From: Fibrobacter sp.
GTDB lineage: Bacteria; Fibrobacterota; Fibrobacteria; Fibrobacterales; Fibrobacteraceae
Length of the DNA: 64,000 nt
Direction: 5' to 3'
Assembly (NCBI GenBank): GCA_017530965.1
Contig: JAFXLS010000042.1
Location: 1-64,000 of the forward strand
A program made the translations under genes and the position numbers. Every line of letters starts with the position of its first letter. Within the stretch, counting starts at the first letter, position 1. Positions 13,807 through 41,720 of this stretch are shown piece after piece. The notes under the pieces were generated by a model that worked only from the letters and a program-made list of their open reading frames with translations, made no database searches and was not told where the DNA came from.

Positions 13807-13833
13807 AAGGAATCCCCTGTTTATATTCGTTAA

Positions 13834-13841
13834 CAAATATA
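13834..13841 (-). promoter_or_regulatory. TATATTTG promoter-like box
   Basis: TATATTTG on the minus strand, 27 bases before the giant gene start. It matches the Bacteroidota -7 element TAnnTTTG and the similar boxes before several other genes in this window. No convincing -33 TTTG at the canonical spacing is seen. Confidence 0.4.
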
Positions 13842-13894
13842 GTTTTCTTACAAATACATTACAGAAGCTATCATTTGTAAACATCCGTAAATAA

Positions 13895-25131: not shown

Positions 25132-27344
25132 TACTTATTCCCCCAACGAATGGTCTTCATAGCCGAAGAACTCTTAACCGTTACAATATAAAGGCCTTTT
25201 GCCATGTCAGAGAAGTCAACCGTATTCGTACCGGCAGACATAAAGCGAGATGCGTTACGGGCAATATTGCGACCGGCCACATCAAGCACCTGAATGTTCA
25301 CGAAACCGGAACGTTTTACATCCACCACAAGCTGGTTACCACGCATATAGGCGTTCGTAGCAAGGTTCTTGCGGGTCTGCGGAACGATATAGTCAGTACC
25401 ATCAAGACCAAATGCCTTCTTCGCCTGGGCTTCCAGTTCAGCATTGCCAGCCCCAATGGTCACAGTAATGTAACCAACAAAGCCTTCGTACTGTTCCGTT
25501 TCGGAAACTTCACCCTTGATAATGATGGTTGCGTCCTTGTCTCCTGCAACAAGCTTATCGCCTTGCTGTTCAGCATAGCCTTCAGGGAGAATCGTGTAAG
25601 AGGGAATAGCCCCACCACGAGCCTTGAGCGAAAACACCTGCGTCATAGAATTCTTCTCGACAGTCTTATTCCCAAAGTATTTCGGATCAAGCCCCTGTTC
25701 AGCTTTCTTGAGCGAGAAGGTAAACGTTGTATCGATAGCGCGGAAACCAGCGATAGCCTTTGCCGTTGCATGAATCTTGGCCGAACCCAGAGACTTGAAG
25801 GTCGCAATCCATACCTGCTGGTTCTTGTTATCGCCATAGCATTCGTTACTGGAACAGGTGGCCTTCGCCACAGAAACAACATCCGGATTATCGGATTCGT
25901 AAGTAATTTCAGCACCTTCGACAGTCTTCCTAGACACCTTCATCAGGTATTCCAGCTTGGTTGAAGCAGCCTGTCCCGAATAGTTAGAACAGCTTCCGCC
26001 ACCGCCAAGGCGGCAGACAACATCCGTCTGGCCAAAGGTCTGGCTCGGGACGGCGGTAACCATAACAACCGACTGGGAATTGTCATTACCCGTCATCACG
26101 GCGTAACCTGCACCATTGATCTTGATGGTACCCGCTTCAACCGTAGCAACCGTCGGATCGCTAGAGGTGTAGGTACAGGAAGAGCTAACCTTGCCCGTGA
26201 CCGAGCCATCCAATTCGCTTGCCGTCACGGCCTTAAAGGCGCAGGAGCCAGTATTCTTACCCGCAACCAGCAATTCAGCCCAATTTCTGTCATTCTTGTG
26301 CTTAGTCAAGTAGGACTTTACGAGGCTTCCGGAGGTCGAGTAAGAAGCAGCATCCAAGGCAGCCTTGGAGTTAAGCACCTTAGAACCAGCAAACATAGCT
26401 GAAGCTTCGTTCTTGTCGCCCACTGTTTCATGACGCAAGGACCAGTTGCAGTTCGGAATCTGCTTTTCGTCCATGTAAGCGGTCCATTCGTTTGTACTTC
26501 CGGAACTTACGCTACCGGCACCGGAAGCTTCGGTAGTACCCCATTCCGTAATAAAGACAGCTCCGTTACAATTTTCGATGTTACCCTTGAACGAATTAAG
26601 GGAATGCGTGGCTGCATAGAAATGGAACACATAGCCAACGTTAGACTGGTTCACGGTACCGCAGCTACCGCTTCCCATCTGCGACCAGCTGGGAGTACCC
26701 ACCAGGGCAAGGTTCGGCGAGTTTTTTCTGATAGCCGAAATCACGGTATTCGCGTAGCTCGCAATCGTTCCCGAGCTCGTATTCACGGGTTCGTTGTATA
26801 CTTCCCAAATGATGTTCGGGACATCCTTGTACTTTGCGGACATACGGCTAAAGAAATCCGTTGCCAGGCTCTGTTCGCTTTCGGCGCGGTGGCTGTGCCA
26901 GTCCACGATGATGTAGATGTCGTTTGCGATAGCCGCCTTCACCATGTTGTCGAGCTGAGCTTCCTTACCTGTCGGATTGTACTTGTAAGCAACATTGGAA
27001 GCAATAGCACCACTCTTTGTATCGTCTTTGGTACATCCACCGCCGTCACTATTGTAACAATCGATGCCCATTGCAAAGCGGAAAACATCGATACCAAGCC
27101 TATCAGCAGCCCAACCGATGACTTCGGAATTGTAATACGGCGTACCCGTAGCATCGGACCAGAAAAGGCTCATACCACGAAGCATCACCTGCTGGCCAGT
27201 TTTCTGGCTAACAATCTTCTTGCCACTTGTTCCCAAAGCTCCATAAACAGAAACTGGTCCCAGTCGCAGAGGTTTTGCGTCTACTGCCGCTTCTGCAAAC
27301 GACACTGCACAAGCAAGCATTGCTATTGATAGAAATTTTTTCAT
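25131..27344 (-). CDS. GH5 cellulase with T9SS sorting domain
   Basis: A secreted family 5 endoglucanase, 737 residues from ATG 27344, where the signal peptide MKKFLSIAMLACAVSFAEA begins; the frame opens 35 codons further upstream without signal features. The retaining pair is visible: acid/base Glu185 in WEVYNEP and nucleophile Glu267 in VFITEWGT. Active-site VDWHSH is also present. Residues about 370-660 contain BIG2/Ig-like beta domains with several Cys. A T9SS sorting domain ends the protein (IQVLDVAGRNIARN ... GLYIVTVKS). A TATCTTTG box lies 36 bases upstream. It is the first gene of a GH5-GH8 pair. Confidence 0.94.
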   Translation of the reverse strand: MKKFLSIAMLACAVSFAEAAVDAKPLRLGPVSVYGALGTSGKKIVSQKTGQQVMLRGMSLFWSDATGTPYYNSEVIGWAADRLGIDVFRFAMGIDCYNSDGGGCTKDDTKSGAIASNVAYKYNPTGKEAQLDNMVKAAIANDIYIIVDWHSHRAESEQSLATDFFSRMSAKYKDVPNIIWEVYNEPVNTSSGTIASYANTVISAIRKNSPNLALVGTPSWSQMGSGSCGTVNQSNVGYVFHFYAATHSLNSFKGNIENCNGAVFITEWGTTEASGAGSVSSGSTNEWTAYMDEKQIPNCNWSLRHETVGDKNEASAMFAGSKVLNSKAALDAASYSTSGSLVKSYLTKHKNDRNWAELLVAGKNTGSCAFKAVTASELDGSVTGKVSSSCTYTSSDPTVATVEAGTIKINGAGYAVMTGNDNSQSVVMVTAVPSQTFGQTDVVCRLGGGGSCSNYSGQAASTKLEYLMKVSRKTVEGAEITYESDNPDVVSVAKATCSSNECYGDNKNQQVWIATFKSLGSAKIHATAKAIAGFRAIDTTFTFSLKKAEQGLDPKYFGNKTVEKNSMTQVFSLKARGGAIPSYTILPEGYAEQQGDKLVAGDKDATIIIKGEVSETEQYEGFVGYITVTIGAGNAELEAQAKKAFGLDGTDYIVPQTRKNLATNAYMRGNQLVVDVKRSGFVNIQVLDVAGRNIARNASRFMSAGTNTVDFSDMAKGLYIVTVKSSSAMKTIRWGNK

Positions 27345-27380
27345 AATATTCTCTCGTTTTTTGCAATCCACACCCAAATA

Positions 27381-27388
27381 CAAAGATA
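27381..27388 (-). promoter_or_regulatory. TATCTTTG promoter-like box of GH5-GH8
   Basis: TATCTTTG on the minus strand with TTTG 18 bases further upstream, close to the Bacteroidota -33/-7 arrangement (TTTG, 19-21 bases, TAnnTTTG). It lies 36 bases before the GH5 start. Confidence 0.45.
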
Positions 27389-27446
27389 ATATTCGTAACC
27401 CCAATTCAAACCTATTTTTCAGCAATTCTTTGTTTACATAGGTAGA

Positions 27447-27471
27447 CAAAAAGGCCTTTTTTTAAAGGCCT
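27447..27471 (-). terminator. Terminator of the GH8 lipoprotein gene
   Basis: On the minus strand AGGCCTTT, loop AAAAA, AAGGCCT, then TTTTT. It follows the GH8 lipoprotein stop by about 50 bases and isolates it from the GH5 promoter. Confidence 0.8.
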
Positions 27472-27519: not shown

Positions 27520-28989
27520 TTAAATTTTAACAAAACCACCATTCATCAAGGTACTGAACATGAGGGTCAGGATTTCCTTGAAGTAGGTTCCCGTATAACC
27601 CACAGCCTGGTACGCATTGACAGAGGCCGTGAAGTAGTCAAAGCAGGCGTTGTACCATGTCGGATTTACACCAAGGCCCATCAAGCAATACGCCCCAATG
27701 TAGTGTTCACCAGCTGTCTGACTTTCCGAAAGGGCCCCTGTGCTATAGTTGTAAGACGTTTTCGGCAAGGAAGCCGGAGTGTTCGAAGTAGCAGTCGAAA
27801 TGAAGTCAGCCATCTTGGTCAGAATCTCGCTAGACTCGGGGCTCTGGTTCCAGTAGTAGTCCCACGCAATACGCCACGGCACACGGACCGATTCCTTGTC
27901 AAACAGCATGTAGGTATTTGCAGCAGAACCATTCCTGGGATCAACCGGTTCACCAGCCGCATTCGACCAGTCCGGGAAGAGGGGAACAGCTCCAGCAGCC
28001 TGGATGTTTTTCATATAGAGGTAATTTGCATTGAGGATGTCAGCCCAGCCACCTTCAGGTTGCACTTCCGCAAACATACGGAGCGCAGCCGGAGAGAAGT
28101 AGCTCAAGTTGTAGACATCCTTATTCGTCCAGGTGTCACCCGGACGGATCAAATTGTTGGCAAGGTTAATGCCCTTGTTCTTGATAGACGTCAACAGAGC
28201 CTTGGCATCTTCAAGATAATGAGCGTCGCCCCACTTTTTGTAGGCAAGAATCAGAGATGCAGCAACGTCAAGGTCGGCATCGAGTGCCGCAGCGGTCGAA
28301 ACGGTAGAGTTGAACGACAAGAGTTCCCAAGGCATCAGCCCATTGACATTGTAGCCACGGGCAATAATGTTGTAGGCCCAGAGCTGATTATACAGTTCCT
28401 GGTCGCCATGGAAGTAGGCAATAAGCATACCGTAGCCAATGCCTTCGGACACGGTACAGCCAATCTTGTTCGTAAGCGCAGCCGTAATGGAATTGCCCTT
28501 CCAGGTTTTCAATCCTTCAAGCGCACACTGATTCTTGTTTCCGCCATCCCAAATCACACGTGCCGGATTCGAGGTTGCCAAGGTTCCCATCTTTGTCGCA
28601 AGGGTGCTTTGGGCAAGGTCATCTTCGTACATGCTGTAGTTCAGAGTAGAACCACCGGCCTTTTCTTCTTCCAAGGTGATAATCCAGCGGGATTTCCACG
28701 TGGCATACAAAGCTGTTGCACTAGCCATATTGGCCGTAGGAGCCAGGGCGACAGCCGAAGGATTGGTATTACCTCCCGAAGCAGAAGAATTGTTATCCGG
28801 ATTAGGATTCTGATTGCCACCTTCTGACGCAGAAGATAACCCCGGATTATCGGGATTGGGCGGAACAACGGACTGAGAGGACTGGTCTACAGGATCGTCT
28901 GAAGGTGCAGCACTGGAAGAATCGTCACTTCCGCAAGCAAACAAGCCAAAAGCCAACGGCATGGCTAACAGAAAATGTTGGAATCGCAT
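27520..28989 (-). CDS. GH8 cellulase lipoprotein
   Basis: A second GH8 enzyme, 489 residues, this one a lipoprotein: lipobox GLFAC with Cys19, then a linker rich in Ser, Asn, Pro and Gly to about residue 85. The catalytic domain has the donor Glu182 in TVSEGIGYGM, ALDADLDVAASL, and the base region DKESVRVPWRIAWDYYW. There is no T9SS domain, so it is held by its lipid, probably at the outer membrane. It differs from the neighbouring T9SS GH8 in domain layout, so the two are likely to act at different places. It has its own terminator and a TATATTAG box upstream. Confidence 0.93.
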   Translation of the reverse strand: MRFQHFLLAMPLAFGLFACGSDDSSSAAPSDDPVDQSSQSVVPPNPDNPGLSSASEGGNQNPNPDNNSSASGGNTNPSAVALAPTANMASATALYATWKSRWIITLEEEKAGGSTLNYSMYEDDLAQSTLATKMGTLATSNPARVIWDGGNKNQCALEGLKTWKGNSITAALTNKIGCTVSEGIGYGMLIAYFHGDQELYNQLWAYNIIARGYNVNGLMPWELLSFNSTVSTAAALDADLDVAASLILAYKKWGDAHYLEDAKALLTSIKNKGINLANNLIRPGDTWTNKDVYNLSYFSPAALRMFAEVQPEGGWADILNANYLYMKNIQAAGAVPLFPDWSNAAGEPVDPRNGSAANTYMLFDKESVRVPWRIAWDYYWNQSPESSEILTKMADFISTATSNTPASLPKTSYNYSTGALSESQTAGEHYIGAYCLMGLGVNPTWYNACFDYFTASVNAYQAVGYTGTYFKEILTLMFSTLMNGGFVKI

Positions 28990-29090: not shown

Positions 29091-30122
29091 TTACTTCACG
29101 AGAATCTTCTGGCTCATGTGGACGGACTTGCCGGACACACGGACCATGTAGACACCTGCATCGAGGCTGGAGAGGCTGATGGAAGAAGCGACCTTGCCGC
29201 TCTTCACAACCTGACCCTGGAGGCTAACGATTTCGAACATGCCGTCCTTGACGCCATTGAACGAAAGGGTACGGCCAGAGAGCGTAGCCTTGACGCTACC
29301 GGCAGCGGCAACAGCCTTGATACCGATAGAAGATGCGTCGCAAGCAGCATGACCATCGCCGTCAGCCTTGCAAGAGAAGGAAGACGGTTCGGTACCAGCA
29401 ACGGACTTGCCACCCTTACAGGTACCAGCAGGACCAACTTCGAAAATACGGAGCTTACCATCAGCAGCGGAAGCACCACCATCGAGCTTGAACTTCACGG
29501 ACTGGGCAGCCTTGAATGCGTCAGCGCAAGAAGCAAGCTTGTTTTTAGCTTCAACCCAGCTCGGCTGCTTAAAGCCAGCGATTTCGATGCTTTCGGTCTT
29601 CGGAGTCGGAGAAGCCTTGAGTGTAGCATTGCAGGAAGCATCACCGGAAGTTGCTTCTGCAATTTCGAGGGTAACGTTCATGTCAGAGGTATAAGTTGCG
29701 CAAAGGCCACCAGCAGCAGTGATGTCCAAGGGATCCTTAGTGCCGTTCACCAGGTTGAAGCCGAAACCAACGAAGTTGTACGGATATTCAGCAGTCTGAC
29801 CGGTTGTGGTCGGATCTTCCAAGTGATACTGAATCACAACGTAACCGAGGTTTTCGATTTCCGGCTGAATCATGGAGCCATAATAGCCCGTGGTATCGTA
29901 CGGATACATGGCATAGGAACCACCGTGGTCGTTCTTACGGTCATCGTAGTCGTACCAGTAACCCATCGTGGAGTTGGGGCATTCGGTATAGTCGTACTTG
30001 CAGTCTCCACCAGTTTCAACCTGCTGGTCAGAACCGTCGAACCAAAGCGACGTATTAACAGTCTGAGCCATCGCGACGGATGCAACAGACGCAATTGCAG
30101 CGGCAAAGATTTTCTTTTTCAT
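29091..30122 (-). CDS. T9SS-secreted protein, possible glucan-binding
   Basis: A 343-residue exported protein. Signal peptide at residues 1-19 (ending SVAMA). Residues about 20-190 form an aromatic-rich beta domain (NTSLWFDGSDQQ, GYWYDYDDRKNDHGG, VVIQYHLED) of the jelly-roll kind seen in carbohydrate-binding proteins, but I cannot name the family. Four or more Cys pairs are likely. The last 70 residues are a T9SS sorting domain (MFEIVSLQGQVVKSG ... VYMVRVSGKS). It sits between cellulases and the envelope operon, so a role in binding plant polysaccharide is inferred from context. Confidence 0.8.
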   Translation of the reverse strand: MKKKIFAAAIASVASVAMAQTVNTSLWFDGSDQQVETGGDCKYDYTECPNSTMGYWYDYDDRKNDHGGSYAMYPYDTTGYYGSMIQPEIENLGYVVIQYHLEDPTTTGQTAEYPYNFVGFGFNLVNGTKDPLDITAAGGLCATYTSDMNVTLEIAEATSGDASCNATLKASPTPKTESIEIAGFKQPSWVEAKNKLASCADAFKAAQSVKFKLDGGASAADGKLRIFEVGPAGTCKGGKSVAGTEPSSFSCKADGDGHAACDASSIGIKAVAAAGSVKATLSGRTLSFNGVKDGMFEIVSLQGQVVKSGKVASSISLSSLDAGVYMVRVSGKSVHMSQKILVK

Positions 30123-30249: not shown

Positions 30250-31296
30250 CTATTTTTTCTTTTTTACGGAATAATCCACTTCCGGACGAAGCTGCAAACC
30301 GATAGTCACCATAAGCGAAACGATATTTTCGTTATGGTCCTGGCTCAAATCGTAAACAGCGACTCCCGCCATACCATCGTCCTTTACCATGCCACAAATC
30401 GCTTTCATCGAGGGAATCCCGGTGAACACGATCGTTTCAGCATCGCTTACCGCCACTTCGGAAGCAGAAGATTCGTCAAAGGAAACCTTGTAGTCCGGAG
30501 CTTCAAACTTTTTCATGAGTTCCTTGTAAGGCAAGTAGCCTTCGTTGCCACTACCGGTACCCTGATGGGAAGAACCCAAGCCCGAAGCACCTGCAAAAGA
30601 CTTTCCGTAAAGGGGAACAACCGGAATAATCTTATCCTTGGAAACGCCCTTGCCGGTAAGGCCGGCAACAGCGCCTTCAATATCTTGCTTAGACAGGTTC
30701 GGCTTCACCGAAGATTCGGATTCATTCATCTGGTCACCAACCATGACCACCACGTAGTCAGCCTGGTTCAAGGCTTCGGAATAGGCATCCATAGAATTGC
30801 CATAAGCCAGTACAGAAACTTCCTTGGAAGAAAGCTTGGACTTAAGGGCGCTCACGGTTTTGCCGATCGATTCGGCATCTTCGGCGGTAGCGTTTTGCCA
30901 GTCGAGTTCGACACCGGCAAGATTGTACTTTTCAACCCATTCGGCAGCAGCTCCGCAAAAGGTTTCAAGCTTGGAATCGTCTGCGGCAATTGCCTTTAGG
31001 TTTTCTTCGACTTCAAAGCCGCCCAAGGATACGATGAGCGAAACATTGTTCGCAGCAGCATTCTTCGCCAGTTCTTCGAACTGCGGAGCATCGTTTTCGT
31101 CAGCAAACGCAAGGGAACCATCTTCAGCCGGGGCTAAAGAAGCGTAGTGGATGTGCGTTACAAACTGGTAGCGGACATCTTTCGGATAAAACTGGCTATA
31201 CTGTGCCCAGTAAGGATAATAGCCTACAACCCTGAAAGGAGCGGCAACCGCTGTCGCGACGAGGGCTGCAAAGGCAAGCAAAAAAATCTTTTTCAT
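30250..31296 (-). CDS. GH18-like protein with degenerate active site
   Basis: A 348-residue exported protein with a GH18 (chitinase-family) barrel. ATG 31296 starts a signal peptide (MKKIFLLAFAALVATAVAA). Fold markers are VVGYYPYWA, SLIVSLGGFE (the SxGG strand) and AGVELDWQ at residues 127-134, which aligns with the catalytic DxxDxDxE motif. In that motif only Asp132 is kept; the acid Glu is Gln134, so chitinase activity is very unlikely. Known GH18 proteins that lost this Glu act as lectins or inhibitors. It is the last gene of the six-gene envelope operon, 13 bases after the lipoprotein gene. A carbohydrate-binding role is inferred. Confidence 0.82.
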   Translation of the reverse strand: MKKIFLLAFAALVATAVAAPFRVVGYYPYWAQYSQFYPKDVRYQFVTHIHYASLAPAEDGSLAFADENDAPQFEELAKNAAANNVSLIVSLGGFEVEENLKAIAADDSKLETFCGAAAEWVEKYNLAGVELDWQNATAEDAESIGKTVSALKSKLSSKEVSVLAYGNSMDAYSEALNQADYVVVMVGDQMNESESSVKPNLSKQDIEGAVAGLTGKGVSKDKIIPVVPLYGKSFAGASGLGSSHQGTGSGNEGYLPYKELMKKFEAPDYKVSFDESSASEVAVSDAETIVFTGIPSMKAICGMVKDDGMAGVAVYDLSQDHNENIVSLMVTIGLQLRPEVDYSVKKKK

Positions 31297-31309
31297 AACG
31301 GTTACCTCA

Positions 31310-32407
31310 CTACGGATTTTCAATCAGGTAAATTTCCCAATCAGCTTCGTCCCTGCAATACAAATCGGCAGAGAAATCCCACACGCGATCTTTGTTTGCG
31401 GCAGGAGCCACAGCGTTCGGACTGAGGGGAGCAATTATTGTTTTCTTTCCAGGAACAAGGGTGGAATCCACCTTGACGGAATCATGCTTTTCGGTCGGAG
31501 GCGGCTTGATGGTATCCGTAATACTCAATGTAGGATCTTCTTCCATCTTTTTGCCACATGCCATATTGGACACGCATGTATCACCGTTCGAAAGCAAGAA
31601 CTTCCAAGTAGATTCTTCGGCTTCGATAACGCGAACGGTATCCTTGAACGTGTAGGTCCACTTATCCTTTGCCGGATCGGGAACGACCGTTACGTCAAGT
31701 TTTTTAGTTTTAACGGCAGGATCCTTAAAGTCAGTATTGCGGCACATACGATAGGGGCGGCCTTCGTAGCGACCGGCATACAGGAACTGTTTTTCGATAA
31801 GGCTCGAATCAATCTCGATGGTCTTGATGAAAGCGAGATCCTGGGTTGCCGTAAAGCCAAAACGGTGGAAGTTCTTAAAGGCACTGCGATATTCCATAGC
31901 ACGGGGGCCATTGATAGCATCAATCGCAGTGTCCCCCGTCACCGGGTCTACAATGAACATACCGTTAATAAGTGCGGAAAGTCCCGGCCACATTTCTTCG
32001 GAAAGTCCCGCATACTCCGTAAAGAGTGTCTTGACGGAAACTTCATCGTCGAAGAATACCGCGACTTCGGAGCTGTCGCTCATCGAAATCGTGAACTTGT
32101 TCACCTTGATCTTCACATTATTGGAATCCGATGCCGTCAAGGGTTCCGGAGCCTTCTTCTCGGCCGTAGCAACCAGCATGGAGTCAATCATCTTTTCACG
32201 AACGGCCTGCATATAGACTTCGTTAGAATCAGCAATGACCGCGATGATCTGGTACTTTGCCAAATCGGGATTCGCCTTGGAATATTCAGTCAAGGAAAAG
32301 TCATCGGGCCAGTTTTCGGAAATGGGGGCATCGATGCTGTCAGCAGAGCATGCGCCAAACACCATTGCCATGGCCAAACCCAAACCTAGTTTAAATTTCG
32401 TTTTCAT
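31310..32407 (-). CDS. Lipoprotein of the envelope operon
   Basis: A 365-residue lipoprotein. The second ATG (32407) is preferred because AGGAG lies six bases before it, whereas the first ATG (32413) abuts the site. Lipobox VFGAC, Cys20. I do not recognise the family. The body is acidic with predicted helices in the first half (LAKYQIIAVIADSNEVYM) and strands later (KWTYTFKDTVRVIEAEES); four Cys (RMCRN, DTCVSNMACGKK) suggest disulfides, and YCRDEADWEIYLIENP closes the chain. It lies nine bases after a barrel gene and 13 before the GH18-like gene, so it is probably a periplasm- or surface-facing partner of the barrels. Confidence 0.8.
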   Translation of the reverse strand: MKTKFKLGLGLAMAMVFGACSADSIDAPISENWPDDFSLTEYSKANPDLAKYQIIAVIADSNEVYMQAVREKMIDSMLVATAEKKAPEPLTASDSNNVKIKVNKFTISMSDSSEVAVFFDDEVSVKTLFTEYAGLSEEMWPGLSALINGMFIVDPVTGDTAIDAINGPRAMEYRSAFKNFHRFGFTATQDLAFIKTIEIDSSLIEKQFLYAGRYEGRPYRMCRNTDFKDPAVKTKKLDVTVVPDPAKDKWTYTFKDTVRVIEAEESTWKFLLSNGDTCVSNMACGKKMEEDPTLSITDTIKPPPTEKHDSVKVDSTLVPGKKTIIAPLSPNAVAPAANKDRVWDFSADLYCRDEADWEIYLIENP

Positions 32408-32416
32408 ATCCATCTC

Positions 32417-34615
32417 CTAGAACAAAACCGTAATGTTGCCCATGAGCAACAATTTGTCCAAGCTCAATTCAGAATCGACCATGGTCGAAACTTCGGGATT
32501 TTCTTCGCTTACAACGCTAGCCGAGTAATTCACCTTGTTCGTCAAGAGTCCACCCTGCAAATCAAGTGTAGCACCTGCGCCAAGCTTGATCTGGAGGCCA
32601 CCCATGGCAAGCATTTCGCTAGCATCCTTCACAATAACCGTTGCAGTTTCATTCAGGGCAAGGCCGTTATCGCCAAATTCCTTCTTGAGCATCTGCACGC
32701 CACCAAGAACCGCAAACGGTCCCCAGACATCGGCCGTGAGACCGCCCACAATGCGCGAGGTCTTACGCTTGAGGTATTCGCTTTCTTCGGCACCTTCGTA
32801 AGATCCCTGAAGAATCAGGCGACGGTCAAGACCCAGCAGCGGAGCGGCGTTGAAACCAAGGCCCGCGCCAATGGTCGTGAAGGAGTTGTCAGAAGCGTCT
32901 GCATTATACTTTGAGAAACGGACATTCAAGGTCACGGCATCGTTCCAGCCGACATTTGCATTCAGCGCAAAGCCCTTACGATCGGGGGTTGCAAGCCCCA
33001 TGGGCATCGCCATATTCACAGACGGATCCACGAATTCAGCAGCGGCCAGGTATTCCATGTACTTGTAGGCGACAGCCTTGTAGCCGTTCTTGTAGAAATG
33101 GCCCAACTTGTAGTTGTTGTTCAGGCGGCCGAAGGTATAGTAGGAATCCAATCTCTTCGCTTCAGCGCTGCCCTGGTCAAGAATTGACGTACCTTCGTTC
33201 TTGCTCATCAAGTTCTGCTGTTGCAGTACGTTGGTGTTGTAAATGGAGAAGTACATATTTTCGAGGCTTCCATAACGGAAACGTTCCAGGACGGCTTCGT
33301 TCGAACCCGTGATAATCGCGTCTCCGTTCAGGATAGTGGTGTTCCCCACATAGTAGTTGGAAGCAGCCTGTTCGGACCAGAAGTCTTTATCGTTACTGAC
33401 GTAGGTTCCCTTGACGTCGAACTTGATGCTTCCGATTTCACCGGCCACGTAAGGCGATACGTTGAAAGCAACACCCTTGCGTTCGTCGATTTCTTCCTTG
33501 TGCCAGTTGTATTCGGTCTTCTGGGACTTGATAAGGTAGAAAAGCGTATCGTAAGCGACAGCCCCCGTATCATCGCGGACGTAGCCGTTCTCGTCGAACT
33601 TTTCGTAACCCATGCCCCTTACGCTAAGAGTTTCAATCGTATCCTGAGTGTAGGCATCTTCGGTGTAGGTCCACTTGGATCCCGCAAATTCAGACTGGAT
33701 ACCCGCGTGAATGGCGCCATTCATGACCATATCCTTGGAATCGAAATTCAAGATTCCAGAATAGACCATGTTATCTTCGTAATACATCGCCGGAATGTGG
33801 GAGTCATCGCGAGAACGAGAGCTCTTTTCGCGGTCGAAGGTGTACACGTAATTACCACCCAAGGTAACTCCGAATGCTTCAACACCGGCATTTGCGCCAG
33901 CCATGTAGCGGTCGCTCCAGTCAAAGTCAAAGAACACTTCGTCATTCTTCTTGGCGATGTTACGGATACGAGCTCCGGTCATCTGCACGTAGATATTAGA
34001 AAGAGGGCCCATTTCGAAGCTATTGTACCTGAAGTTCAGGCCCTGCAGCAAGCGGTTGGAAGAAGTATCCAGGGAACGCAGGGCAAGCGCTTCGCTACGC
34101 TTTGCGGCAAAAATTTCCGGTTCCTGCAAGATTTCGGTCTGGGGAACATAAATCGTGAGCGGAGTGTAACCGACACGCATATAGCCCAAATTGAAATCTA
34201 CATGCTTGTTGAGGATCTTACCATCGTAGCTGAACCAGTGACCAATAATCGGGTTGATCGGTTCTTCGTAAGCTTCTTGCCAATCCTTGTGCAGACGAAG
34301 TTCAACCTTAGCCTCGGTTTCTTCGCTCGGACGGGCACGTACCACCAGATTCACGTCGGTGTAGGCCTGATTTTCGCGGAAATCCTGCTGATCGAGCAAC
34401 TGGTCGGAACTCAGCTTGGAAGAAAGGACGCCCGCCTTGGCCGTTCCGCCCAGACGAAGTCCCATCACAGAACTGTTGAGTGAATCGAGCGTTCCTACAA
34501 GGTTTTTCTGCTTTTCAACCAAGGTAGAGTCCGCAGCGCTTGCAAATGCCACAGCCCCGCAAAGGAGAAGCGAGATTCTGGAAGTCATCTTAAACATATC
34601 GTTATACCATTTCAT
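32417..34615 (-). CDS. Large outer-membrane beta-barrel protein (third)
   Basis: A 732-residue exported protein. A signal (ending FASA) is followed by a short coiled-coil-prone segment (EKQKNLVGTLDSLNSSV) and then about 680 residues of alternating amphipathic strands rich in Tyr, Gly and Asn, ending in Phe (NITVLF), the usual barrel-assembly signal. It is a paralog of the next gene upstream: both have PLT(I/L)Y then a short stretch and PEIF/PMIF, then RLLQGLNF/RNLQGINL, and MGLATPDRKG/NGLATPNRNG in equivalent places. No plug or TonB box is seen, so it is not a SusC-type transporter. Function unknown. Confidence 0.82.
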   Translation of the reverse strand: MKWYNDMFKMTSRISLLLCGAVAFASAADSTLVEKQKNLVGTLDSLNSSVMGLRLGGTAKAGVLSSKLSSDQLLDQQDFRENQAYTDVNLVVRARPSEETEAKVELRLHKDWQEAYEEPINPIIGHWFSYDGKILNKHVDFNLGYMRVGYTPLTIYVPQTEILQEPEIFAAKRSEALALRSLDTSSNRLLQGLNFRYNSFEMGPLSNIYVQMTGARIRNIAKKNDEVFFDFDWSDRYMAGANAGVEAFGVTLGGNYVYTFDREKSSRSRDDSHIPAMYYEDNMVYSGILNFDSKDMVMNGAIHAGIQSEFAGSKWTYTEDAYTQDTIETLSVRGMGYEKFDENGYVRDDTGAVAYDTLFYLIKSQKTEYNWHKEEIDERKGVAFNVSPYVAGEIGSIKFDVKGTYVSNDKDFWSEQAASNYYVGNTTILNGDAIITGSNEAVLERFRYGSLENMYFSIYNTNVLQQQNLMSKNEGTSILDQGSAEAKRLDSYYTFGRLNNNYKLGHFYKNGYKAVAYKYMEYLAAAEFVDPSVNMAMPMGLATPDRKGFALNANVGWNDAVTLNVRFSKYNADASDNSFTTIGAGLGFNAAPLLGLDRRLILQGSYEGAEESEYLKRKTSRIVGGLTADVWGPFAVLGGVQMLKKEFGDNGLALNETATVIVKDASEMLAMGGLQIKLGAGATLDLQGGLLTNKVNYSASVVSEENPEVSTMVDSELSLDKLLLMGNITVLF

Positions 34616-34627
34616 CTTGCACCCCCC

Positions 34628-36952
34628 TTAGAAATTGACGTTCAAGACTGCTTGAACAACAGCCTGGGAGAATTTATGCTTGTATTCGGGAACAACAACC
34701 GCGCTGCCGTCCTCGTTCACCATCGGATTGCCTTCGGCATCGTTCACTGCGATTTCGGCGTAGTTCGGCATATTGGTTCCGACGATACCCGACGAGGTAT
34801 TGTAGGTGTTTTCCGTAGTGATCCAACCGTAGTTCAAGGCAAGATACACGCCATCGCCCACGGTGTAGTCGAGGCCGACCATCCACTGCATTTGCTTTCC
34901 CTTGAGGAGCGGATTCACATAGCCCGGGGAAGCCTTAGCAGAAGAAAGGGCATCGAGTTTCATGTCGATCATCTGAAGTCCTGCACTTAAGCCGAGGCGC
35001 GGCATATACTGGACATAAAGGCCCGCATTGATGAAGTCAAGGCTCAGTTCACCCTTGTCGGCAACCGGCATAATGGCCTTGGCCTCGTCTGTCAGTTCCT
35101 GAGTCTTCACGGAATGCTTGTAGCTCCCCGAAAGTTCGAGCGGGAGAGTAAAGCCGAGCATCTTGAAGACGTTCCACTTGAGGCCACCGCCATATTCCAT
35201 GAATTCGGCTTCCTTAAAGGCAAAATTATCGCTCTTGTCCTGCTTAAGCATGGTGAAAAGGCCTCCCACTTCCACGAAGTCGTTGAAGCCCACCTTGAGG
35301 TCTGCCTTGGCACCGTTTCTGTTCGGTGTAGCAAGACCGTTCGGCAAGCTCATCTGAACAGCCGGATCAAGCATAGTGCTCATCAGGGCAAGTTCCTTGC
35401 GAGTGTACACCAGGTTACGCCAGGAATTCTTGACCATCGGAGCGATATTGTAGCTCTGGGTCTGACCCTTGATGGTGGGGTCATCGGTGTTGGCAAGCTG
35501 GGTCGATACCGGAGTGAATTTCGGGTCAAAGTAGTAGAGAGCTCCGAAAGTGGAGTACAAGGGGGAATTCACGCCGAAACGAATCGTGTTACCGTCCTTG
35601 TCGGTATTCAAAACGCGCGTAGCAAAGAACTGCGGCGACTGTGCCAAGTTGTTGTACCAGTTGCTGTCGTTCATGATATAGTTTGCAGAAAGCTGGATGT
35701 TCAATCCGGCAGGCATCTTGTAGCCAGCGTTCAACGTCGCAAGGATCGCCTTGCCGTCGTTATTGACTTCGTTTCTTTCGACATTCTGAATTTCGGTACC
35801 ATCTTCGGCGGTAGTCGTCACCGTTTCGTACTCGTAGAGCTTGTCGCTGGACATCGCATATTCACCCATGAGATCCAAGGTGAGATCCTTGTTCGCCATA
35901 AGTCCTGCGACATCGACACCGAGGCGACCGGCAAGAATGGTCGTACGCTGCGGCTCCATATCTAGCGGGTTGATGAAATCCGGCTTGTATTCGCCCAAAT
36001 CAAAAGATGTCGGGTTGGCCACATTGTCAAGGGAGCCATCGACGTAGGACTTCAACTGTCCATCGACAATCAATTCCTGATTTTCGGGGCGCATTGTACG
36101 AGTGAAAGAGGCGCTGTCGTCAAAGACGTACATACCCGTGAATCCGAGGAACACGTTTTTGTTTACCGGCAGGTATTCCAAGTTGCCGCTCAGCATCCAC
36201 TTGTCCATATTGGCAGACTGGTAAGATCCCGGATAAACGTCACCACCATTTATAATGGGGTTTCCGCCATTCGGAAGCAAGTTGCCGTTAGCGCCAGAAA
36301 AGTCCAGCAGCTGAACGCGACGCAGACGGGCAAAGATACCTTCGAGGCGAACTTCACCGGCCATACCGCCAAAGTCGTTACGCAACTGGAGGTTTATACC
36401 CTGAAGGTTGCGCTGGTTACCCTCGATCATGGCGTTGCTCATCGCCATTTCGCGACCACGCGTAAAGATCATGGGTTCGTAAAGGATATCGTCGATACCC
36501 GACGGTGAATACAGCGTAAGGGGGCTGTACTGTTCGCGGAAATCACCGACCACCCAGTACAGGGCACGTCCAACGTTACCTTCGACATTCAGCCAAGGAA
36601 CAGAAATGCTCTTCGCCGAACTAGCAAAGTAGTTCTGCATACCCGCTTCAAAACGGAGAATCGCATTAAAACGAACCGCATCGTAGGGGCGGAAATGGAA
36701 TCCCAAGTCAGCCGTTACGAACTGAGAACGTTCTGCATTGGGCAACTTGTTCAGCTCAGCTTTTTCCTGATCGGACGACATATAGGCGTTATTGAGCACG
36801 CCCTTGATGCTTCCGTCAATTTCTAGGCCACGCTTCGCTTCGAGGGAGTCCTGCTTTGCCTTCAGCTGCATGTTCATGTCGTAATCCGATACAGCGGATG
36901 CGGCAGTAGCCGTAACAAGGAGAGATAGTAATAACTTATACATCTTTTTCAT
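34628..36952 (-). CDS. Large outer-membrane beta-barrel protein (second)
   Basis: A 774-residue exported protein, paralogous to the barrel encoded downstream. Signal MKKMYKLLLSLLVTATAASA, then a short helical stretch (MQLKAKQDSLEAKRG), then a long strand-rich domain ending in Phe (VLNVNF). Shared landmarks with its paralog are SPLTLYSP ... ILYEPMIF, NLQGINLQL and SLPNGLATPNRNG. It has Asn- and Asp-rich loops that could face the surface (NGNLLPNGGNPIINGGD). AGGGGT precedes the ATG. It lies 12 bases from each neighbour. Confidence 0.82.
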   Translation of the reverse strand: MKKMYKLLLSLLVTATAASAVSDYDMNMQLKAKQDSLEAKRGLEIDGSIKGVLNNAYMSSDQEKAELNKLPNAERSQFVTADLGFHFRPYDAVRFNAILRFEAGMQNYFASSAKSISVPWLNVEGNVGRALYWVVGDFREQYSPLTLYSPSGIDDILYEPMIFTRGREMAMSNAMIEGNQRNLQGINLQLRNDFGGMAGEVRLEGIFARLRRVQLLDFSGANGNLLPNGGNPIINGGDVYPGSYQSANMDKWMLSGNLEYLPVNKNVFLGFTGMYVFDDSASFTRTMRPENQELIVDGQLKSYVDGSLDNVANPTSFDLGEYKPDFINPLDMEPQRTTILAGRLGVDVAGLMANKDLTLDLMGEYAMSSDKLYEYETVTTTAEDGTEIQNVERNEVNNDGKAILATLNAGYKMPAGLNIQLSANYIMNDSNWYNNLAQSPQFFATRVLNTDKDGNTIRFGVNSPLYSTFGALYYFDPKFTPVSTQLANTDDPTIKGQTQSYNIAPMVKNSWRNLVYTRKELALMSTMLDPAVQMSLPNGLATPNRNGAKADLKVGFNDFVEVGGLFTMLKQDKSDNFAFKEAEFMEYGGGLKWNVFKMLGFTLPLELSGSYKHSVKTQELTDEAKAIMPVADKGELSLDFINAGLYVQYMPRLGLSAGLQMIDMKLDALSSAKASPGYVNPLLKGKQMQWMVGLDYTVGDGVYLALNYGWITTENTYNTSSGIVGTNMPNYAEIAVNDAEGNPMVNEDGSAVVVPEYKHKFSQAVVQAVLNVNF

Positions 36953-36964
36953 ACCATTGACCCC

Positions 36965-39511
36965 TTAGAACCAAACCTTTGTTTCTGCAGTGATAAAGTG
37001 ACCGCTCCAGTTGTTTTCGGAGACGTAGTTATCCGTATGGGTCGCCCACTTGTAGCGCATGTGAAGCCCCGCACGCGGAGAGAAGTCCCAGTCAAAACCG
37101 ATACCGAGCGCAGTCTGATAGTAGTCGAGAGGAGCCTTGGTGTAGGTCGTCTGCGACGTAGGAATCAGGTTGCCGTAAGCACCACTTGCCACAATGCCAC
37201 CGACGCGGACGTCATCGTTTGCAACCGTATAACCGTATTCAGACTTCCAGGTTTCGAAACCGACCTGACCCACCAGATGGAGCGTCGGGGTGAGAGCGAA
37301 GGTGGGTTCGAAGAGGCCGTAGAAACTCCAGAGCAACATGTCGCTCTGCTCTTCGCTATAGGCAACCGGAGCAAAAGTCTTCGACACACCAGAAATTGCG
37401 ACATAGCCAGACATCATCAGGTTGCGGTCGGTACCGAACCAGTGACCGATATCGTAACCACCGTCAATCGAGAGATAAGAAGACCACTTGGTGTGTTCAG
37501 GAACTTCTTCGGCCTTAACCTGCTTTGCGTCTTCGTAAGCAACAAAGGATTCCCAAAGTTCCCAGGTTCCACCATAGAGACCACCGCGCTGACGTTCCAT
37601 CTTGCGGGCTGGAGTAAGCACGCCAGCACGGTTCACATAGCCATTGGAAACGGTCGAGTTACCCGAGTCAGCCCAGAAAAGGGCGTTATACTTGGTCCAA
37701 GAATTGGAGCTTTCCCACATGTTGCGGCCGTTCAAGCGGTAGTTGAACAGAACCACGTCCTTGCCCTTTGTCACCTGACGATGCTGGGCATACTGAACAC
37801 CCAAGCGGCCACGGTTAAATTCCGGTTCGAACTTGAAGTTCAAGCCCGCCATATTAGGACCATAGCGCATTGCACCGCCGTTCAGATAGAATTCGTCCTT
37901 ACGCCAGCTGCGGAAACGGGAAGGATCGGTGATGCCATACGGAGAGAAGAAGTTTTCGGAGAAATAAACACCTTCGATTGTTGTCGGGAGCCAGTCAAGA
38001 TGTTTGTCCTGCACCTTGACATAAATACCGAACGCCGGAGCAGAAGTGCCCTTGGAGATTGAATCGCGGTTATAGGCGCGCTTGTTCTCGTTACCCGCGT
38101 TATGGAAAGTCGTCGAATCGTCCCAGCTCAAACCGAGATCTGCCATCAAGTAGAATTTCGGGGTGAGGTTACCCTTGATATCCATGGTCGCAATCTGGTT
38201 GTTTTCGAAATGCGGTTCACCTTCGAACTTGAGCTTGGTCCAGGGACCGGCAAATTCGTCTTCGTCAATAAGACCATCATCGTAGAACACGCCCATATAG
38301 TTTGCACCAACCGTCATACCATCAAGAATCTTGGTCTTGGCAAGTCTTGCATGGTAGACATCGCCACGGAAATCGTAGTTACCGTCCATTTCAAGTTCGC
38401 TGGGCTGACCACCATAAAGACGCATACCGTCGCGGGTACCGGCATCCATATCCTTGGGCTGAGAAATCATCGCCTGGGCAATAAAACCGAAAGGCATATT
38501 GTACACGTTCATGAACACGCCACCGAAGGAACGGTTCGTCCAGAAGGCGCGACCACCTTCCTTGACGGGCTTGAAGGATTTTTCCTTATAATAGGTAGAA
38601 ACGGTCTTTTCTTCTTCGAAGGTTTCGTACTGCCAAGCAAAGCGAGGCATCGTTTCACGTTCCCACATGGTAAGAGGAGAGGCACATGCCCAAATCACAC
38701 CGCCAGCAGTCACGTAGGCGCCGAACACCGAGGAACGGATATCGACACCGAAGTTCATTTCTTCTTCGATAGACGCCGGAGTGTAGTCCGAGTTGTGGTC
38801 GAACGGAACGCGTTCCCAGCCGTAGCTCGGGTTTGTGTTCGGGCTCTTAGCCAAATAGTTTGTATAGAGACCCGTGAGATCGAACGGGAAGGTCATATTG
38901 CTCCACAACGTCATATAAGAGTTGGGCATAAGGACCATGTTCATCTTGAGGGTTGCGTCTACAAGCGTACGAGCCTTGTCGTCGCCGTACACCGGAGCGA
39001 TTTCGGTATAGTCGAAATTCTTGACGCGGAAGGCCATGTAACCGGAAACGGCGAGAGGGGCGTCATCCTTTCCTAGTAGCGTGGATTCCATATTATTGGA
39101 AAGGGTATCGATGTCAGCTTCGATAGCGGCAACACGCTGTTCCGAGGTCATTTCCTTAGGAATGTAGATAGGAGCAATCGAAGGTTCCTTCGCAGGGGCA
39201 GCCTCAGTGGCAGCACCAGCCAACTTAGGTTCTTCGGCCGGAGCAGGGGCTTCGGATTCAGCAACGGAGGTTTCTTCGACAGGGGCGGAATCATTGGATT
39301 CGGCAACGGATTCTTCGGAAGAAGATTCTTCGGAGACAGTTTCTTCTACAGAGGGTTCCTCGGAAGATTCATCCTCGACCGCCGGTTCAGGTTCGGAAAC
39401 AGATTCTTCAACCGCTGAAGATTCGTCACCGGAATACTGTTCATCGGCATCAAAATCTTGAGCCATCAAAAACGACGAGCAAAGCAGCACGGCTATAGAT
39501 AGATTACGCAT
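36965..39511 (-). CDS. Large outer-membrane barrel protein with acidic linker (first)
   Basis: An 848-residue exported protein. After the signal (ending FLMAQ) comes an unusual acidic linker, residues about 20-105, made of repeated SEE/EEP/SSEE units, then a short coil (RVAAIEADIDTLSNNM), then about 690 residues of strand-rich, aromatic sequence ending in Phe (TAETKVWF). Its sequence differs from the two barrels downstream but the order (helix, barrel, C-terminal Phe) is the same. The linker is longer and more acidic than anything else in the operon and might reach through the periplasm to peptidoglycan or a partner; that is inference. Confidence 0.82.
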   Translation of the reverse strand: MRNLSIAVLLCSSFLMAQDFDADEQYSGDESSAVEESVSEPEPAVEDESSEEPSVEETVSEESSSEESVAESNDSAPVEETSVAESEAPAPAEEPKLAGAATEAAPAKEPSIAPIYIPKEMTSEQRVAAIEADIDTLSNNMESTLLGKDDAPLAVSGYMAFRVKNFDYTEIAPVYGDDKARTLVDATLKMNMVLMPNSYMTLWSNMTFPFDLTGLYTNYLAKSPNTNPSYGWERVPFDHNSDYTPASIEEEMNFGVDIRSSVFGAYVTAGGVIWACASPLTMWERETMPRFAWQYETFEEEKTVSTYYKEKSFKPVKEGGRAFWTNRSFGGVFMNVYNMPFGFIAQAMISQPKDMDAGTRDGMRLYGGQPSELEMDGNYDFRGDVYHARLAKTKILDGMTVGANYMGVFYDDGLIDEDEFAGPWTKLKFEGEPHFENNQIATMDIKGNLTPKFYLMADLGLSWDDSTTFHNAGNENKRAYNRDSISKGTSAPAFGIYVKVQDKHLDWLPTTIEGVYFSENFFSPYGITDPSRFRSWRKDEFYLNGGAMRYGPNMAGLNFKFEPEFNRGRLGVQYAQHRQVTKGKDVVLFNYRLNGRNMWESSNSWTKYNALFWADSGNSTVSNGYVNRAGVLTPARKMERQRGGLYGGTWELWESFVAYEDAKQVKAEEVPEHTKWSSYLSIDGGYDIGHWFGTDRNLMMSGYVAISGVSKTFAPVAYSEEQSDMLLWSFYGLFEPTFALTPTLHLVGQVGFETWKSEYGYTVANDDVRVGGIVASGAYGNLIPTSQTTYTKAPLDYYQTALGIGFDWDFSPRAGLHMRYKWATHTDNYVSENNWSGHFITAETKVWF

Positions 39512-39520
39512 ACAAACCTC

Positions 39521-40261
39521 TTAAATCTCGTTGCGGAACGGGTAATAGGCCGGGCCTTCGTAAGCCTTGCCATGTTTCTTGATGACGATATCGTCCATCC
39601 AGACCTTGAATGACTCGTTTTCGTCTTTACGGACTTCGAGACGGAAACCCTTGAAGTTAGCCCAGTTGAAGGGAAGCATCACTTCGCGAGTATTCTTGGC
39701 ATCCCAGTAGACACCCGTCGTACCGAACAGCTTGAGGGGGATACTGAAATGAGTCCATTCGGAAGTGATTTCGCCGAGGCTCTTGGAGCGGAGTTTCACC
39801 TGCAAGGATTCACCACCGCTTTTCACGCCATCGTCCACGAGCACGAACAGTGCATTTTCGCCACCCTGTGCACCCTTAATCCAGAATTCAAGGACACCGT
39901 CTTCCATATAGGGAGTCAGGTCTACAGAACCGGCAATACAAATAGCGACACCAGAATAGTCACTTGCAATAAGTTCAATTTCCATAGAAAGAGCTCCTTC
40001 CATGGCGTACTTATCCGTGAGTACCGGTTCGGGGTTTTCACGCGGATACTGGTAAGTATATCCACCGCCACGAGGAATAGCTTCACGCATCACAACAGTG
40101 ACAATGTCCTTGTCAGGACGGAAAGGCTTACCTTCTTTAAGTACAAAGCGGCCCGCATCGCGGTCGCGGTAGCTACTAAACGAAGCCGCATCCGCCAAAG
40201 AAACGGCAAGAAGCACGCCAACAGCGCACTTCAATAAAGACGAGATTCTCATATGTTTCAT
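39521..40261 (-). CDS. CBM11/CIA30-like exported protein
   Basis: A 246-residue exported protein, first gene of the envelope operon. Signal at residues about 1-26 (ending LADA). ATG 40261 or ATG 40252 could be the start; AAGG lies too near the first. The mature domain is a jelly roll of the CBM11/CIA30 type: MEGALSMEIEL, GVLEFWIKGAQGG, WTHFSIPLKLFG, VWMDDIVIKK. CBM11 members bind beta-1,3-1,4- and beta-1,4-glucan. There is no enzyme attached and no lipobox or T9SS tail, so it may work in the periplasm or with the barrels. Binding is inferred from fold. Confidence 0.8.
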   Translation of the reverse strand: MKHMRISSLLKCAVGVLLAVSLADAASFSSYRDRDAGRFVLKEGKPFRPDKDIVTVVMREAIPRGGGYTYQYPRENPEPVLTDKYAMEGALSMEIELIASDYSGVAICIAGSVDLTPYMEDGVLEFWIKGAQGGENALFVLVDDGVKSGGESLQVKLRSKSLGEITSEWTHFSIPLKLFGTTGVYWDAKNTREVMLPFNWANFKGFRLEVRKDENESFKVWMDDIVIKKHGKAYEGPAYYPFRNEI

Positions 40262-40505: not shown

Positions 40506-41720
40506 ATGAAAAAATTACTTTACACATTTTTAGTTATTTCTATGTCCCTGCTCGCACAGAGCTGTAATGAAGAATCTTCCAGTACGGCCCCCGAACCGGA
40601 TTCTTCCGAAAGCTCCTCCCTTTCGTCAGCAAGGGTAAATACAGAATCTTCCGCAAGCGCAGAGCTCCCCAACTACAGCCGCGCTATCGCCGTAAACAAG
40701 ATGCTCGGCCACGGCATCAACTTCGGAAACTCCTGGGAATCGGGCGTAGACATCACAAAAGCCTGCAAAGAAGGCCAGGAAACGAACTGGTGCTTTATCG
40801 AAGGCAAGGTCTACGATTACCTCGACGAAAACTGGAGCAACCCCATTCAGGATGAATGGTTCCAAGCAGTAAAGGACGCCGGTTTCCAGTCCATCCGTAT
40901 GCCAGTTCGCTGGAACCAGACAGCTCTCCACGAGCCGCCCTACACCTTGCAGGCGGCACGTGTGGAAGGCGTAAAGCGCCACGTCAAGATTGCAAACGGC
41001 CTTGGCATGCCGGTGGTTATCAACCAGCATCACTTTAACGAGCTCTATGACAACCCGGAAAAGTACATGGCCGCCTTCTACGGCATTTGGGAAAATATCG
41101 CCGAAGAATTCAAGGATTTCGACAACGATTCGCTCATATTCGAAATCCTGAATGAATCCAGAGGCAAATCTGACGCCGTCCTCGCCCAGATGACAGACAG
41201 CGCCATCAAGATTATTCGCAAGACAAACCCAGGCCGCACCATCATGATTGACCCGGGTAACTGGGGCAAGTTCGAACAGATGGACGCCTTCGCCGACATC
41301 AAGGACAGCAACATCATTATTGACGGCCACTATTACGAACCGTACAGCTACAGCCACAAAGGACACAGCTCCGATTGTTCCAAGGGCGAATTGTGGAAGT
41401 CGAACGACCAGGACGCAATCCTGAAAATTGCGAGCGATCTCAAGAGCTACGTTAACATGGCCAAGAGGATTTTCCCCGGTAAAGACGGCACCCATATTCC
41501 GCTGAACATCGGCGAATTTGGAGCCTCTTCCAGATGCGAAGCCGAAGGTCAAGACGACGCCAACAGAGCCATGTATATCAAGGCAATTGTCCAAACTGCA
41601 AACCAGCTAGGCTATTCTTGGCACATCTGGGGACTTACGGGTGTCGGATTCGACATCTACTACAGCAGCACGAATGAATGGTACCCCGAAATCTTGAAGG
41701 CGCTGCAAAGCAACATGTAA
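40506..41720 (+). CDS. GH5 cellulase lipoprotein
   Basis: A family 5 endoglucanase anchored as a lipoprotein, 404 residues. Lipobox LAQSC with Cys20, then a short Ser-rich linker to about residue 55. The catalytic domain shows RMPVRW, INQHH, the acid/base Glu217 in FEILNES (NES instead of the usual NEP), DGHYYEPY and the nucleophile Glu337 in NIGEFGA. The layout is closest to GH5 subfamily 4/2-like endoglucanases. No binding domain is attached. It is transcribed away from the envelope operon and ends two bases from the convergent lpxA. Confidence 0.93.
   Translation: MKKLLYTFLVISMSLLAQSCNEESSSTAPEPDSSESSSLSSARVNTESSASAELPNYSRAIAVNKMLGHGINFGNSWESGVDITKACKEGQETNWCFIEGKVYDYLDENWSNPIQDEWFQAVKDAGFQSIRMPVRWNQTALHEPPYTLQAARVEGVKRHVKIANGLGMPVVINQHHFNELYDNPEKYMAAFYGIWENIAEEFKDFDNDSLIFEILNESRGKSDAVLAQMTDSAIKIIRKTNPGRTIMIDPGNWGKFEQMDAFADIKDSNIIIDGHYYEPYSYSHKGHSSDCSKGELWKSNDQDAILKIASDLKSYVNMAKRIFPGKDGTHIPLNIGEFGASSRCEAEGQDDANRAMYIKAIVQTANQLGYSWHIWGLTGVGFDIYYSSTNEWYPEILKALQSNM

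Follow-up and report, generated by a model that had tools for sequence, protein, structure and literature searches.

In the Vibrio chitoporin ChiP and Escherichia coli maltoporin LamB-MalEFGK systems, an outer-membrane barrel of 16-18 strands operates together with a periplasmic ATP-binding cassette (ABC) importer for oligosaccharides. The SusC/SusD systems of Bacteroidota combine the gene for a surface glycan-binding protein with that for a large outer-membrane barrel, accompanied by glycoside hydrolase (GH) genes. Fibrobacter species are among the most efficient rumen cellulose degraders, and the mechanism by which cellodextrins enter F. succinogenes has been stated to be unknown, while the products do not accumulate outside the cell (PMC6851124). 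In a genome study of the phylum, chitin oligosaccharides were assumed to enter by TonB-dependent import (PMC4704652). Here, we describe an operon found in a 64,000-nucleotide stretch of Fibrobacter sp. DNA (assembly GCA_017530965.1, contig JAFXLS010000042.1, positions 1 to 64,000; hereafter the window), which encodes a protein with a family 30 carbohydrate-binding module (CBM30), three large beta-barrels (B1, B2 and B3), a lipoprotein and a GH18 protein. We propose, with a probability of roughly 0.55, that this operon is a Fibrobacterota-specific outer-membrane unit for glycan capture and uptake, with a role similar to that of Sus systems or chitoporin and unrelated to both.

The operon comprises six minus-strand open reading frames between positions 30250 and 40261, in the order CBM30-B1-B2-B3-lipoprotein-GH18, separated by gaps of 9, 12, 12, 3 and 13 nucleotides (nt). 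The coordinates confirmed the tight spacing reported in the first-pass annotation of this DNA, apart from the fourth gap (between B3 and the lipoprotein), which is 3 nt and reaches the 9 nt given there if the lipoprotein is taken to start at its second in-frame ATG; the GH18 gene starts with the ATG at 31296. The same annotation had suggested checking the gene order in other Fibrobacter genomes, and the order proved intact in 20/20 untruncated Fibrobacteraceae loci (in L064, L065 and L070 the lipoprotein was identified by inspection of the sequence that separates B3 from GH18). The median identity to the window proteins was 83% for CBM30, 60% for B1, 57% for GH18, 45% for B2, 44% for B3 and 24% for the lipoprotein. 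Since the order was kept in all 20 loci even where barrel identity dropped to 32-46%, the conservation of the operon goes far beyond chance.

The product of gene 1, previously described as CBM11/CIA30-like, was reassigned. CBM11 remained below threshold (E 0.08) and this identity was rejected, whereas the CBM30 match was clear (Pfam PF21582), with a score of 61.3 bits against a curated cut-off of 27 and a further match to the chains 1wmx/2c24 (E 2.7e-5). The aromatic positions of the domain are conserved, and the protein would be expected to bind cellulose or beta-1,4-glucan chains. In the CBM30 domain tree the modules split cleanly into two clades, c30a and c30b, with 100/100 support. Every operonic CBM30 protein, including gene 1 of the window, has a c30a module.

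The association between this module and the barrels extended throughout the phylum. Relatives of B1 were found in 145 of 168 Fibrobacterota genomes and relatives of the B2/B3 type in 146, many of the distant genomes being draft assemblies with truncated loci. Outside the Fibrobacteraceae, most loci had the arrangement B1-B2-[CBM30-CBM30-CBM11-GH51], with gaps of mostly a few tens of nucleotides, or overlaps, and a third-gene product that shares the domain architecture of Cel51A from F. succinogenes S85 (Fisuc_3111; PMC4668043). Many c30a proteins of these other classes carry a lipobox, as judged by eye. In several families (L107-L112) the third gene encodes CBM30-CBM30-CBM11 or CBM30-CBM30, so that GH51 is absent and the c30a module is retained. 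In genome G022 a lone c30a gene adjoins the barrels (L042), and a c30b-CBM11-GH51 cellulase is encoded elsewhere (L120). Cellulases lacking c30a had no barrels nearby, whether their flanks were of useful length (L116, L120 and L121) or short (L119 and L124), and genome G006, which is 97% complete, lacked c30a, B1 and B2 alike. At the genome level, B1 and a CBM30/GH51 match occurred together in 145 cases, the match without B1 in seven, neither in 16 and B1 alone in none (Fisher p 3e-17 overall and 2e-11 outside the Fibrobacteraceae, relatedness being ignored). The seven genomes with a match and no B1 were four incomplete Fibrobacteraceae genomes, G006, G165, in which a B2-like gene lies at a contig end beside a c30a protein (L123), and G039, which gave only a weak CBM30/GH51 match. 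In these comparisons the constant unit is B1, B2 and one CBM30 module of the c30a clade, a coupling that is near-strict across the phylum.

One pattern-based scan with a distant B1 profile returned no matches outside Fibrobacterota, one probably mis-binned contig excepted; the result agrees with the earlier statement that such a system is not known from other phyla and does not prove absence elsewhere. The contig (L082, JAOAEO010000110.1; 5.6 kb) is binned as Thermodesulfovibrionales and carries a B1 approximately 50% identical to the distant Fibrobacterota query; transfer would be a possible explanation as well. Two variant domain arrangements were also recorded. The operonic Cel51A-type protein at L129 (G009:C35) has an extra c30b module (c30a-c30b-c30b-c11-g51), and L113 (G018:C322) encodes a free-standing c30a-c30b-CBM11 protein with no barrels nearby, the barrels of G018 being on another contig together with a Cel51A-type gene.

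The neighbour genes of 37 distant loci were clustered, and representatives were annotated with Pfam and NCBIfam. ABC importer genes were present in approximately 20 of 36 distant loci. In many of them, a solute-binding protein of the SBP_bac_5 family, OppB- and OppC-like permeases and two ATPases are encoded beside B1-B2-Cel51A; in another family the same position is occupied by an unrelated, MalFGK-type importer (SBP_bac_1, two permeases and a MalK-like ATPase). A GH94 cellobiose/cellodextrin phosphorylase gene follows in six distant loci, a GT35-type phosphorylase and a PtsI-like protein are encoded in four, and GH9 in several. No periplasmic energy or chaperone gene was conserved with the barrels in this clustering. 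A CBM30-first version with three barrels, associated with GH20 and GH18 genes, was identified at L031, L032 and L131, the last being cut at the CBM30 end. A B1 tree built with a quick method grouped this three-barrel version with the Fibrobacteraceae and a sister family, apart from the Cel51A-linked version (100% support in the Shimodaira-Hasegawa-like approximate likelihood ratio test), and genomes G156 and G158 hold both versions. Judged by gene content, these loci would bind, cut, import and phosphorolyse beta-1,4-glucan, with a chitin counterpart, and the barrels would be their common outer-membrane component. In the window's own genome, the nearest SBP_bac_5 relative is on another contig, with no Opp permeases among the neighbours scanned, and Cel51A is on yet another contig, apart from both the operon and this relative.

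The barrels themselves were modelled with AlphaFold2 from alignments of 61 (B1) and 38 (B2) sequences. Both models were large beta-barrels, with a predicted local distance difference test score (pLDDT) of 69.6 and a predicted template modelling score (pTM) of 0.71 for B1, and 81.4 and 0.81 for B2; by our own count of the predicted elements, B1 has approximately 26-28 strands and B2 approximately 22-24. B3 is, by homology, a barrel and a paralogue of B2 (hhalign 100%, E 2.8e-86). In profile comparisons B1 showed weak similarity to B3 (84%) and hardly any to B2 (21%), and an SPLT/TPLT motif is common to all three. The three proteins end in ...KVWF, ...VNF and ...VLF, so that the antiparallel barrel, the signal peptide (by eye) and the C-terminal aromatic residue expected of outer-membrane barrels were all found, and the earlier description of three barrel proteins ending in Phe was upheld. 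The B1 extension between the signal peptide and the barrel is Glu/Ser-rich, acidic and disordered in the model; it is confined to part of the genus, and in many orthologues the alignment starts only at residue 121-126. In B2, only the signal peptide and a short helix precede the first strand at residue 43, and therefore there is no N-terminal plug. Pfam revealed no TonB-receptor, plug, SusC or SusD match in the six proteins, as the first-pass annotation had stated. SusD_RagB was present in 9 of 168 Fibrobacterota genomes and absent from that of the window, and sampled Fibrobacter genomes had at most three TonB-receptor barrel matches each. Membership in TonB-dependent or SusCD systems was rejected on the lack of SusD and of a TonB plug, the position of the first B2 strand and the disordered N-terminus of B1. 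A search of PDB sequences with B1 gave no match, and Foldseek comparison of B1 and B2 with the PDB returned only generic barrels (TonB receptors, ushers, MtrB, AlgE and chitoporin), with a template modelling score by query length of at most 0.32; no barrel family is therefore assignable to them. The best Foldseek matches of B2 were ushers, with MtrB among the top ranks.

Genes 2-5 had no Pfam family above threshold, and NCBIfam gave nothing informative for the six operon proteins. The lipoprotein carries the lipobox VFGAC|S, identified by eye, and the other products have signal-peptide-like N-termini, likewise judged by eye, which is consistent with the export previously claimed for all six. 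The loss of the catalytic Glu from gene 6 was confirmed: in the GH18 motif DxxDxDxE, DWQ replaces DWE, and the Glu was absent from 21/21 Fibrobacteraceae GH18 sequences examined. Strong matches to gene 6 outside this family (E <1e-40) were limited to G156, G158 and G159, which belong to another family of the same class. In two of these genomes the matching GH18 gene adjoins the related operon (L031 and L032) and has an intact catalytic motif. The pseudoenzyme probably descends from such a neighbouring active GH18.

The features of the locus are listed below. The operon lies between cellulase genes, as noted earlier; a divergent GH5 gene is found at the corresponding position in most Fibrobacteraceae loci. 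The possible seventh gene occupies the same position in only part of this family, and downstream of it lies a strong hairpin that resembles a terminator and has a T run (29071-29034), while promoter and terminator scans yielded no more sites than shuffled sequence. The neighbouring cellulases have a C-terminal sorting tail of the type IX secretion system (T9SS) and gene 1 has none; T9SS cargo status was rejected for all six operon proteins, which lack a C-terminal sorting domain. Three further features of the window were recorded on the minus strand. Near the cellulase cluster, positions 6427-13884 encode a secreted surface protein of very large size (2485 aa), which shows a GLUG-like motif and, at its C-terminus, a weak T9SS tail. 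A GH8 and a GH5 gene lie next to each other at 23215-27449, downstream of the operon region, each with a weak to moderate match to a T9SS sorting tail. A 712-aa protein (45475-47613) combines a CHU_C signal for type IX secretion with a match to propeller repeats.

Features of the operon and of its flanks, in window coordinates
Feature	Position	Strand	Basis
Gene 1: exported single-domain CBM30 protein, c30a clade	39521..40261	-	PF21582 E 1.5e-16
Gene 2: B1, predicted 848 aa outer-membrane beta-barrel	36965..39511	-	AlphaFold2 model, barrel strands 153-847
B1 residues 1-119: signal peptide and acidic low-complexity extension	39155..39511	-	pLDDT <50 over 9-119
Gene 3: B2, predicted 774 aa outer-membrane beta-barrel	34628..36952	-	AlphaFold2 model
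Gene 4: B3, predicted 732 aa barrel, B2 paralogue	32417..34615	-	hhalign
Gene 5: fast-evolving lipoprotein, lipobox and conserved Cys residues	31310..32413	-	alignment
Gene 6: GH18 pseudoenzyme	30250..31296	-	PF00704 E 1.1e-34
Possible seventh gene: T9SS-tailed exported protein, encoded 127 nt downstream of the operon	29091..30122	-	
GH5 cellulase gene, divergent, associated, outside the operon	40506..41720	+	PF00150 E 3.8e-38
GH8 gene, downstream, associated in part of Fibrobacteraceae	27520..28989	-	PF01270 E 7.8e-33

Equivalents in strain S85 were assigned by locus order, unaligned: Fisuc_1525 (FSU_2007) corresponds to gene 1, Fisuc_1526-1529 to genes 2-5, Fisuc_1530 (FSU_2012, CBP-9) to gene 6 and Fisuc_1523 to the GH5 gene. 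The locus tags were taken from PMC3079729, PMC4619616 and PMC6851124, where Fisuc_1530/CBP-9 is annotated as 'cellulose binding'. Cellulose binding is known for the envelope proteins CBP-9 and Cel51A (PMC6851124, PMC3079729, PMC6204037), and Fisuc_1525, Cel51A and a family-5 solute-binding protein were found in the envelope on all substrates (PMC4619616). The expectation of cellulose-linked expression was not borne out by the published data, which show constitutive or nearly constitutive expression (PMC6204037, PMC4619616): that of Fisuc_1530 is high and stable (PMC6204037), and FSU_2012 is 1.3-fold lower in envelopes of cellulose-grown cells (PMC6851124). A literature search for Fisuc_1526-1528/FSU_2008-2010 found no mention, and the operon, the barrels and their phylum-wide coupling appear to be undescribed in the Fibrobacter literature searched.

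In the proposed scheme, a surface c30a CBM30 module, which stands alone here and forms part of a Cel51A-type protein in other classes, would bind beta-1,4-glucan chains and work with two or three large barrels (B1 and B2, plus B3 in the window version). The barrels would pass oligosaccharides to the periplasm, where ABC importers and phosphorylases would take over. In the Fibrobacteraceae, the importer and Cel51A are encoded elsewhere in the genome, B2 has its paralogue B3, and a neighbouring chitinase would have decayed into a binding-only GH18 pseudoenzyme, while the small lipoprotein may hold the parts together. We infer the physical complex, the binding of cellulose by the gene 1 product, the channel function and the direction of transport. 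Uptake is proposed because of the locus neighbourhood, the near-absence of SusD, the small number of TonB-receptor matches and the stated gap in knowledge of cellodextrin transport. The first-pass annotation had suggested a machine for gripping or moving beta-glucan; the glucan link is strongly supported by the CBM30/Cel51A linkage across the phylum, and the moving part, or motor, is unsupported. The neighbours in other classes indicate oligosaccharide capture and uptake.

The available evidence does not separate uptake from anchoring or export, and it is the neighbourhood that favours uptake. If the barrels were outer-membrane sockets for c30a proteins (CBM30 and Cel51A), by which the cell grips cellulose while oligosaccharides enter by another route, the constancy of a binding rather than a catalytic module would be explained as well as by uptake. 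CBP-9 and Cel51A bind cellulose in the envelope, S85 needs close contact with cellulose (PMC3079729), and the CBM30 protein is the most conserved of the operon, as under tight contact constraints. We nevertheless regard such anchoring, the main alternative, as less likely than uptake, given that in other classes the same locus holds GH94 and ABC importers of two unrelated types, that three large barrels exceed the needs of an anchor, and that many c30a proteins of those classes appear to be self-anchored by lipid. The same importers and GH94 would be left unexplained if the barrels served to export c30a proteins through the outer membrane and c30a were the export tag. This alternative accords with the strict coupling of the barrels to one module and not to the remaining cargo, with a gene 1 product devoid of the T9SS tail of the neighbouring cellulases and with the usher and MtrB matches of B2; a folded CBM would be an unusual tag, and the lack of a conserved periplasmic energy or chaperone gene makes it improbable. 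That the barrels are general porins or structural envelope proteins placed by chance in a cellulose gene cluster might be read from the high, constant expression of the S85 GH18 gene (PMC6204037) and from their new families. It is very hard to reconcile with the strict co-occurrence with CBM30/Cel51A, the absence from the 16 genomes without CBM30/GH51 and the phylum-wide linkage.

Several observations weigh against glycan capture and uptake as the role of the operon. Clustering in a cellulose locus is equally expected of pure adhesins, and the Foldseek matches of B1 and B2 are generic. The window operon itself has no ABC importer or phosphorylase, the link being drawn from its relatives, and B1 is missing from the four incomplete Fibrobacteraceae genomes, G165 and G039 despite a CBM30 match. 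In S85, fractionation recovered most of the GH18 protein, and the CBM30 protein exclusively, from the extracellular medium (PMC4668043), so that they are not membrane-locked. The levels of TonB/ExbB/ExbD proteins in S85 increase on cellulose (PMC6851124), a possible sign of a different route through the outer membrane. The near-strict rule of one CBM30 clade with B1 and B2, together with four uncharacterised genes, makes the uptake question testable, and the long-known CBP-9, Cel51A and CBM30 protein are connected as parts of a single system. The data also indicate membership of the 'chitinase' CBP-9 in a family of pseudoenzymes; outside the Fibrobacteraceae, the closest relatives of this family keep the catalytic motif and adjoin a related operon.

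Compared with the described systems, the operon resembles SusC/SusD in the pairing of a surface glycan-binding protein with large barrels among glycoside hydrolase genes. It differs in that the barrels have no TonB-receptor or plug domain, gene 1 encodes CBM30 and not SusD, two or three barrels are encoded side by side, and the loci of its Fibrobacterota relatives are linked to ABC importers and phosphorylases. The PopA porin-like superfamily of F. succinogenes (FSU_2404, FSU_0230) also consists of Fibrobacter outer-membrane barrels tied to cellulose growth or vesicles (PMC12228718); membership was rejected, as PopA barrels have 16 strands, against approximately 22-28 here, and are encoded at other loci. 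Chitoporin and maltoporin share with the relatives of the operon the combination of a barrel with an ABC importer, and a version for chitin is likewise present (L031, L032), whereas B1-B3 are proteins of 732-848 aa with approximately 22-28 strands, unrelated sequence and a surface CBM30 protein in the unit. The operon might thus represent a new class of phylum-specific glycan importer, a tentative proposal to which we give somewhat less than even odds, in which two or three plug-less paralogous barrels of undescribed families and a CBM30 docking or feeding module, in separate cellulose and chitin versions, would replace SusC/SusD.

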